Assembly (NCBI GenBank): GCA_945921235.1
Contig: CAMEKH010000005.1
Location: 1-39,213 of the forward strand
Direction of reading: 5' to 3'
Source: an uncultured Prevotellaceae bacterium
GTDB taxonomy: Bacteria; Bacteroidota; Bacteroidia; Bacteroidales; Muribaculaceae
Length of the DNA stretch: 39,213 bases
A program made the translations under genes and the position numbers. Below, piece by piece: positions 19,143 to 25,385 of the stretch. Under the pieces are notes generated by a model. The model was not told the origin of the DNA. It saw only the letters and a list, made by a program, of their open reading frames with translations, and ran no database searches. Position 1 is the stretch's first letter. The number at the start of each line of letters is the position of its first letter.

Positions 19143-19760
19143 TTAGAAAATGTAGGCAGCCGTTACGGTCCAGTATTTGTTTTTGCCTTCGATTTTCTCG
19201 CCGTTTGTCACCGTGCCTACGGCTTTCAGCGTGTTTGTCAATCCAAGTCCGTAGCTTGCAGCCACCTGAACGTGCTTAAGCAATTCCACACCGAAGCCGA
19301 AGTTCCAAGCAATATCGGTGGTTTTGTTCTCAAGAGCTTCGTCAATGCCCTTTTTGCTTGCAAGGAAAGCGAAGCTCGGACCGGTGGTTACGAAAGGACG
19401 GAGCACATTGTCGATAACCGGAATGCTGAATTTGTATTTAAGATTGATAGGAATGTCGATGTAGTCGCGCTTGATATTGTCGGTTGACGATTTTACTTCG
19501 CGATGCACATAGAGCAATGATGCATCAACTCCTACACCTATTACGGGCACGGTGAATTCCACCATTGCACCACCCACGAATCCTGCGCGGTTGTCGGTGT
19601 TGAAACTCCCTTTGAACTCCTCAGCGCTTGTAAATTTCAAACTGTTGATTGCTACACCGGCTTTAAGACCGAATCTGAACTGTGATGCCGCCGGCATAGA
19701 CGTTGCAAATGCAACAATGGCAATTATTGCCATGGTGATAGAGCGTGTAATTTTCTTCAT
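19143..19760 (-). CDS. PorT-like outer-membrane beta-barrel protein (copy 2)
   Basis: A 205-residue exported protein with a signal peptide (ITMAIIAIVAFATSMPAASQ) and barrel strands such as FRFGLKAGVAINSLKF and VGVDASLLYVHREV. It shares layout and motifs with the gene just downstream (GVDASLLY versus GIDGSLLY, DIPINLKYKF versus EIPLNLKFKY, a similar ending), so the two are tandem paralogues. Function is unknown. It has a possible -7 box of its own at 19788-19795. Confidence 0.75.
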   Translation of the reverse strand: MKKITRSITMAIIAIVAFATSMPAASQFRFGLKAGVAINSLKFTSAEEFKGSFNTDNRAGFVGGAMVEFTVPVIGVGVDASLLYVHREVKSSTDNIKRDYIDIPINLKYKFSIPVIDNVLRPFVTTGPSFAFLASKKGIDEALENKTTDIAWNFGFGVELLKHVQVAASYGLGLTNTLKAVGTVTNGEKIEGKNKYWTVTAAYIF

Positions 19761-24011: not shown

Positions 24012-24983
24012 CTACAGCGTAATGAGCAAGTAGGCTATGTAGGCGCAGTAGATAGCTACGAGAATCACGCCCTCGATGCGGTCGAGAATGCGCTTTCTGA
24101 AAGTGAAAGCAAAGATAAATGTGAGCACCGAGCTGAGAATCATCACGCCGAAATCTATCATATTGATTCCTTGCAGCACTATCGGCTTAATCAGCGATGA
24201 GATGCCGAGAATCATAAGCACATTGAAAACGTTTGAGCCGAGGACATTGCCTAAAGCGAGCTGCTGATTGCCTTTTCGGGCAGCAATTATGCAAGTTATA
24301 AGTTCGGGCAAAGATGTTCCCACGGCTACTATAGTGATAGAAATCACTTTCTCTGACATTCCCGCCATTTTTGCAATTTCAACGGCTGAATTCAGAAACA
24401 AGTTCCCGCCGAAAAGCAATCCGGCGAGAGAAATCAGAGCCGAGGGAATTAAAATCCACATCGGTCGGTCGGTGAAAAAAGACTTTGCGGTGTCGGACTT
24501 TTGCTCAGCCGGTTTTTCGCCTTTAGAAGCCAATGTCACATATCCCATATAAGCGGCGAAGATGATTAGCAGAAACGCCCCATCTATACGCCCTACTTCA
24601 TTCTCGAAAATGTGCGGAAAGATATTGTCGCAGCATAGCAGCATCAGCAGAAACGACACGAAAATACCGAAAGGAATATCGCGGCGCAAGTTAGGGCGAG
24701 TGATAGCAAACGGAGCAATGATAGCAGTGACTCCGAGAATCAGCAGAGTGTTGCAGATATTGGAGCCGATTACATTGCCCAGAGCCAAGTCGCCTTTACC
24801 TTCAATGGCAGATGCCGTGGAGATGAAAAGCTCGGGAGCCGAGGTTCCCATTCCCACAATTGTGATGCCGATGATGAAATCGGATATGTTGAGTCGCTTT
24901 GCAATAGCAACCGATGAATCCACAAGTTTATCCGCACCAAGCAGCAATAGCGCCAGCCCGGCAAATAATAGAATGAAAGTCAT
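24012..24983 (-). CDS. CaCA-family Na+/Ca2+ antiporter (YrbG type)
   Basis: A 323-residue inner-membrane cation exchanger with two inverted repeats, each carrying an alpha-repeat: GMGTSAPELF with GSNICNTLLILG, and AVGTSLPELITC with GSNVFNVLMILG. About ten membrane helices. The acidic residues of both PEL motifs, needed for cation transport, are present. ATG 24983 is chosen; a TTG at 24989 is in frame. It starts 12 bases after the stop of the Cys-rich protein gene, so the two are almost surely one transcript. Which cation is exported is not readable from sequence. Confidence 0.92.
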   Translation of the reverse strand: MTFILLFAGLALLLLGADKLVDSSVAIAKRLNISDFIIGITIVGMGTSAPELFISTASAIEGKGDLALGNVIGSNICNTLLILGVTAIIAPFAITRPNLRRDIPFGIFVSFLLMLLCCDNIFPHIFENEVGRIDGAFLLIIFAAYMGYVTLASKGEKPAEQKSDTAKSFFTDRPMWILIPSALISLAGLLFGGNLFLNSAVEIAKMAGMSEKVISITIVAVGTSLPELITCIIAARKGNQQLALGNVLGSNVFNVLMILGISSLIKPIVLQGINMIDFGVMILSSVLTFIFAFTFRKRILDRIEGVILVAIYCAYIAYLLITL

Positions 24984-24995
24984 TGGCAATACAGC

Positions 24996-25385
24996 TTATT
25001 TAGCCTCAGTTTTGCTACATTCCGTAGCTTGAGTGCATTGTTTAGCTTTAGCACATTCCTTCTTTGCACACTCTTTTCGGGCTTTATTGCATTTACGAGC
25101 ATTAGCTTTAGTGCATTTTTCAGCCTTGTTGCAAGTAGCGGCTTTAGCCTCCTTACAGCATTCAGCTTTTGCAGCTTGGGCGCAAGGTTTAGCCTTTGAA
25201 CACTCCTTTTTGACCTCGGTGCACATAGCCTTGGCATCTTTATCGCAAGGAGTAACTTTAGCGCATTTTTCAGTCTTGTTGCATGAAGCGGTCTTGGCAC
25301 AGCAAGTTCCGGCAGCATTTTGAGCCGCTAAATTCATTGAGAAAGCTGCCAAGATTGCGACAGCAAAAAATTTTAGATTTTTCAT
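24996..25385 (-). CDS. Cys/Lys/Ala-rich small secreted protein
   Basis: A 129-residue protein with a clear signal peptide (MKNLKFFAVAILAAFSMNLA, cleaved near AAQ). The mature ~108 residues contain 17 cysteines spaced mostly 5-8 apart, nearly all in the form C-x-K, with Lys, Ala, Glu and Thr between them (for example CNKTEKCAK and CNKAEKCTK) and almost no hydrophobic residues. I do not recognise a family. It looks like a repeat-built metal-binding or redox protein of the periplasm or surface. The ATG at 25385 is used; a TTG at 25394 would precede the signal peptide. Tightly linked (12 bases) to the cation antiporter gene downstream. Confidence 0.75.
   Translation of the reverse strand: MKNLKFFAVAILAAFSMNLAAQNAAGTCCAKTASCNKTEKCAKVTPCDKDAKAMCTEVKKECSKAKPCAQAAKAECCKEAKAATCNKAEKCTKANARKCNKARKECAKKECAKAKQCTQATECSKTEAK

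Follow-up and report, generated by a model that had tools for sequence, protein, structure and literature searches.

A Predicted Exported Cys/Lys-Rich Protein of a Muribaculaceae Bacterium as a Candidate Envelope Thiol or Metal Buffer

P0001 is a protein of 129 amino acids, rich in Cys and Lys and predicted to be exported, that is encoded on the minus strand of the window (the whole stretch of 39,213 nucleotides analyzed here, contig CAMEKH010000005.1 of assembly GCA_945921235.1, from an uncultured Prevotellaceae bacterium placed by GTDB in the Muribaculaceae). We consider it a probable envelope thiol or metal buffer because similar proteins are scattered through the order and some are fused to a stress-chaperone-like domain. 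Our more specific reading is tentative and falls a little short of even confidence: P0001 may be a disordered, basic, thiol-rich envelope protein that serves as a redox and soft-metal sink and belongs to a fast-evolving Bacteroidales class. The observations on which this reading is built are the composition of the chain, the regular spacing of its Cys residues, the scattered occurrence of similar chains, the Cys-rich segments that sit ahead of LTXXQ domains, and the gene contexts (rprXY and flavodiiron) found outside the host family. Export, thiol state, binding of metals or oxidants, and induction by stress are properties that we infer for P0001.

In the mechanism that we envisage, the mature chain would be disordered or loosely helical and strongly basic, with evenly spaced thiols. 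Located in the periplasm or on the cell surface, it would be a reservoir of sacrificial thiols that also chelates soft metals, its reduced Cys residues capturing oxidants, electrophiles, or Cu/Zn-type metals before envelope proteins suffer damage. The Lys residues would hold the chain in solution and preserve thiol reactivity.

The P0001 open reading frame (ORF), characterized by its translation, composition, shuffles, and profile comparisons, runs from an ATG at 25385 to a TAA stop at 24996 (24996..25385, stop codon included). Its N terminus, MKNLKFFAVAILAAFSMNLAAQ, reads as signal-peptide-like over approximately residues 1 to 22 (25320..25385, minus strand), with a short basic start, a hydrophobic core, and an A-A-Q end. 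The predicted mature chain of 107 to 108 amino acids contains 17 Cys, 25 Lys, and 24 Ala residues, 3 residues of the set ILVMFWY, and no His, and its net charge is +15. These values agree with what the earlier note had claimed for this ORF, namely a clean signal peptide, a mature chain of about 108 residues with 17 Cys, and a near absence of hydrophobic residues. The Cys-to-Cys spacing of 5 to 8 residues claimed there also holds, apart from two CC pairs, and only 0.06% of shuffles matched this regularity. The claim that nearly all Cys residues lie in C-x-K was slightly too strong: the pattern is enriched, but it occurs at 12 of the 17 Cys residues (shuffle expectation, 4.0; none of 5,000 shuffles reached 12). 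Within the chain there is a 51-nucleotide duplication, in frame and with a 150-nucleotide spacing, the two copies of which (AKTASCNKTEKCAKVTP at 25248..25298 and AKAATCNKAEKCTKANA at 25098..25148, both on the minus strand) are 80% identical. Modeled by AlphaFold without an alignment, P0001 had a mean pLDDT of 57.8, and its helices were of low confidence.

The earlier note had proposed a homologue search, and its outcome depended on stringency. Strict searches with P0001 found nothing beyond its own genome, either with phmmer against 61 genomes or in tblastn-confirmed scans of viral and genome collections, and plasmids gave no match. Empty strict searches are expected because search programs correct for the biased composition of low-complexity chains. 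P0001 is probably dispensable in the genus, because no homologue was found in four same-genus genomes (76 to 85% complete). The fixed C-x-K pattern was rejected as a genus-wide detector; it gave mostly chance matches, about as many as a reversed control. Lax and profile searches, in contrast to the strict ones, brought out a scattered Bacteroidales class. At lax thresholds, we found two host-family proteins with a Cys/Lys-rich segment ahead of an LTXXQ domain. Stand-alone chains in the host family are L114, L115, L116, L117, L131, L139, L170, L178, L186, and L187; with P0001, they occupy at least 11 genomes, a minimum, given how poorly such chains are detected. An order-wide profile search added seven more stand-alone members (L193 to L199), one each in seven other families and with 3 to 7 Cys residues.

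P0001 shows the features that define this class: a signal-peptide-like start, a low-complexity chain rich in Cys and Lys, and a likeness to the other members beyond what composition gives. Its own match to profile A1 is circular because A1 contains P0001. Against a leave-one-out profile, it scored higher than 998 of 1,000 shuffles with the HMMER bias correction and 976 of 1,000 without it. Pairwise scores were reached by 0 (L170), 3 (L139), and 4 (L193) of 1,000 shuffles, but the score against L196 did not go beyond those of shuffles. Because the leave-one-out and pairwise scores, that against L196 excepted, exceed those of nearly all shuffles, we judge homology of P0001 to the class likely but not certain; it is possible that low-complexity Cys/Lys chains arose more than once. 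Among L114 to L117, dN was 0.16 to 0.34, dS was >1.1 or saturated, and almost all Cys residues were kept, which shows purifying selection on the class. Two long variants from one genus (L186:1529-2248 and L187:1541-2155, both on the plus strand), with 20 to 21 Cys residues and repeats of the type ECKKGE..KCDKAAANH, are conserved next to a panB-like gene.

The association with LTXXQ proteins takes several forms. In 52 distinct LTXXQ-type ORFs, the number of Cys residues between the signal peptide and the domain ranged from 0 to 14 and was at least 3 in 35 of them. The motif C-x-K-T-E-Q-C lies just after the signal peptide in the stand-alone chains L114 to L117 and also in the fusions L055 and L134; the P0001 version is CNKTEKC. 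In genomes G079 and G187, a stand-alone gene lies directly 3' of an LTXXQ gene. The LTXXQ assignment of the fusions is based on PF07813 matches slightly under the cut-off (E = 1.5e-4), on a Spy-model match that is also under its cut-off (E = 8.9e-8), and on a fold search. The best matches in that search, none of them significant, included CpxP, CnrX, and Spy. The likeness to the CpxP/Spy/LTXXQ group includes the Cys/Lys-rich segment that host-family relatives carry between signal peptide and domain, whereas P0001 itself has no match to the LTXXQ domain; the genome that carries the window yielded no LTXXQ fusion. To our knowledge, E. coli CpxP and Spy have no such Cys-rich extension. A same-genus LTXXQ-like protein in genome G001 (L145:699-1208, minus strand) is without a Cys-rich extension, and its gene sits behind genes for an ECF sigma factor-like protein and a probable anti-sigma factor. 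Another type of Cys-repeat envelope protein, lipoprotein-like and with CDSCK repeats, is encoded in genome G074 (L082:691-933, minus strand), convergent with an LTXXQ gene and adjoining an ECF sigma factor-like gene.

The neighbors of the other stand-alone members varied, and most were identified by eye. They included an LTXXQ gene, the rprXY pair, a gene for a flavodiiron protein, and, named by eye, genes for a MATE-type transporter, ispF, and a glycerol kinase. The gene for the 22-Cys chain L178 in genome G333 lies, also by eye, between Cas9-like and polysaccharide-export-like genes. Outside the host family, a Cys/Lys-rich gene is divergent from rprX-rprY in three families and a Cys/Lys-rich gene lies upstream of a flavodiiron oxidoreductase gene in two families (60% identity), counts that are raw recurrences. 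The matches to the RprY model (E = 1e-80 to 1e-95) are under the cut-off yet are the best by far, and the kinases at the rprX-rprY loci are 45% and 32% identical. The divergent order resembles that of cpxP, which is located beside cpxRA. Both contexts belong to Cys-poorer members (3 to 7 Cys), for which the case for homology to P0001 is built on similarity of low-complexity sequence, and P0001 is in neither. These recurrent contexts suggest a role in redox and envelope stress. In Porphyromonas gingivalis, RprY regulates genes for oxidative stress (ahpC), chaperones (groES, dnaK, and clpB), and a sodium pump (nqrA) (PMC3646045, PMC5706477, PMC6032018). Control of a calcium exporter by RprY found no confirmation in the literature searched and plays no part in our reading.

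A more ambitious claim, which taken jointly we consider distinctly unlikely, is that the Cys/Lys-rich disordered chains, whether free-standing or fused to a CpxP/Spy-like chaperone domain, and encoded in some families next to the RprXY two-component system, would form an undescribed Bacteroidales envelope thiol-stress module. The chains would then act on periplasmic proteostasis as a switch operated by redox state or metal, the envelope counterpart of the Hsp33 principle. P0001 has no match of note in Pfam, NCBIfam, or the PDB and no PADLOC entry, and nine other stand-alone members had no Pfam match and only subthreshold NCBIfam matches. Neither the class nor its association with LTXXQ was present in Pfam, NCBIfam, or the literature searched (most subscription literature lay outside the search), and this Bacteroidales envelope class appears to be so far unnamed. 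The means by which gut-type Bacteroidales defend the envelope against metals and oxidants are poorly understood. Should the chains prove to be thiol sinks, a recurrent, unannotated part of that defense would have been overlooked because low-complexity filtering conceals it, and the fusions to LTXXQ would point to a periplasmic chaperone under redox or metal control.

Other functions were weighed against the sink reading. P0001 could instead be a dedicated periplasmic protein of the metallothionein or copper-storage kind, whose Cys clusters specifically bind Cu(I), Zn, or Cd and for which redox buffering is secondary, an alternative that we regard as unlikely but by no means far-fetched. Like the bacterial metallothioneins (SmtA/BmtA and MymT), P0001 is small, Cys-rich, and poor in hydrophobic residues; its 17 Cys among 107 mature residues amount to a high Cys content by the metallothionein criterion, and most stand-alone members are about 15 to 20% Cys. 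Several relatives (L114, L115, L139, and L178) contain 7 to 10 copies of CxxxC, a motif found also in CutF and in Cu-binding proteins such as Sco (PMC7558416). Csp1, too, is exported and has many Cys residues; its signal is of the Tat type, and its fold is a rigid four-helix bundle (PMC7558416). However, the P0001 chain contains no CxC, CxxC, or CxxxC and no His, and it differs from the metallothioneins also in its predicted export, its richness in Lys, and its even Cys spacing. No sequence match to metallothioneins and no match to solved metallothionein or Csp structures was found, the P0001 model (pLDDT 58) is of low confidence, and none of the inspected neighbors of stand-alone members was recognized as an efflux gene for Cu, Zn, or Cd. 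The lack of CxC, CxxC, and His makes P0001 a weaker candidate for a true metallothionein, and the relatives with CxxxC arrays would be stronger ones.

We give little credence to a second alternative, a basic disordered envelope protein like the acid-shock protein Asr that buffers charge or acts as a chaperone and in which the Cys residues are incidental. P0001 resembles Asr in being repetitive, basic, Lys/Ala-rich, and exported (as predicted), its net charge and few hydrophobic residues fit, as does the low-confidence helical model, and its relative L114 weakly matched the Asr model (E = 0.008, below the cut-off). But Asr is not Cys-rich, P0001 itself has no Asr match (NF033636), and the Cys positions are regular and are kept under purifying selection in the relatives. 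It is also quite improbable that P0001 forms a structural matrix in the envelope or on the surface, crosslinked by disulfides or otherwise. The even Cys/Lys repeats, the predicted secretion, and the variable chain length among relatives would suit such a role, but inspection of the P0001 sequence revealed no surface-anchoring signal and an anaerobic habitat, as inferred, disfavors disulfides.

The sink reading makes no use of the gene downstream of P0001. This gene (24012..24983, minus strand) encodes a CaCA family calcium/sodium antiporter-type protein, matching PF01699 (E = 9e-68) in two stretches that correspond to two Na_Ca_ex repeats and TIGR00367 above its cut-off (246.6 versus 179.65 bits). 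The junction TAA-GCTGTATTGCCA-ATG has the 12 bases claimed in the earlier note, counted to the ATG at 24983; a TTG at 24989 is a possible upstream start. Since the two genes are on the same strand and 12 bases apart, they are probably on one transcript. The note had proposed that an exported metallothionein-like or redox-buffer protein is paired with the cation exporter; its reading of the chain is still the most sensible one, but the pairing is unsupported. Antiporter homologues occurred in 76 of the 118 genomes searched, and a composition scan of 30 loci found a Cys/Lys-rich exported chain beside the antiporter in the window only. The gene order of the closest 15 other antiporter loci (L003 and L005 being cut short upstream) confirmed that none has such a neighbor, so the conserved linkage sought in the note was not seen. 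The same-genus loci L004, with its full upstream sequence, and L003, with 264 bases upstream, carry no P0001-like gene. In addition, no other stand-alone member adjoins a CaCA gene, and the ions that CaCA proteins carry, Ca2+ and Na+ among them, are hard, so that thiols, by general chemistry, are poor ligands for them. It is thus very improbable that P0001 delivers or buffers the cation moved by the antiporter, which is probably an incidental operon neighbor that may share a transcript with P0001 and not a functional partner. The tempting metal-exporter pairing is thereby removed, and the relatives give no support for it.

On its other side, the antiporter gene is tail to tail with a T9SS plug-domain gene (PF17116; 22673-23974, plus strand), an arrangement shared by G002, G003, G027, and G008, which are four of the six closest other genomes. 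Upstream of P0001, a DUF3316 gene (PF11777; 25462-26361, minus strand) follows parC, and parC, DUF3316, P0001, and the antiporter gene are on one strand with short gaps. A stem-loop with a weak T run lies between the DUF3316 gene and P0001 (25426..25450, no strand given); it is a possible terminator or attenuator but not clearly functional, because its fold z-score is only -1.5. The Bacteroidetes promoter TAnnTTTG was not found upstream of P0001 on the minus strand, and there was no Rfam and no defense-family match.

That P0001 is a bacteriocin- or defensin-like antimicrobial is hardly credible: it is cationic, Cys-rich, and predicted to be secreted, but its leader is of the Sec type and not double-glycine, it has no hydrophobic face, and no recognizable immunity or export genes are nearby. 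Least credible is that P0001 is merely an open frame in a low-complexity stretch; synonymous codon usage does not separate its frame from the others within the window and no same-genus homologue was found, but the clean signal peptide, the GroEL-leaning codons, the in-frame internal duplication, the purifying selection on relatives, and a likeness to them that exceeds composition all speak against it. Look-alikes of P0001 in frame 0 occur elsewhere. Judged from its sequence, P0001 is a real gene. As the reference for highly expressed codons we used the GroEL gene of the same genome, because ribosomal protein L4 was not found in the assembly (G000, 93% complete), probably owing to an assembly gap. 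Against this reference, the synonymous choices in P0001 lean to GroEL-like codons, with a score as high in only 7 of 2,000 null draws, and the window gene at 19143-19760 has about the same score.
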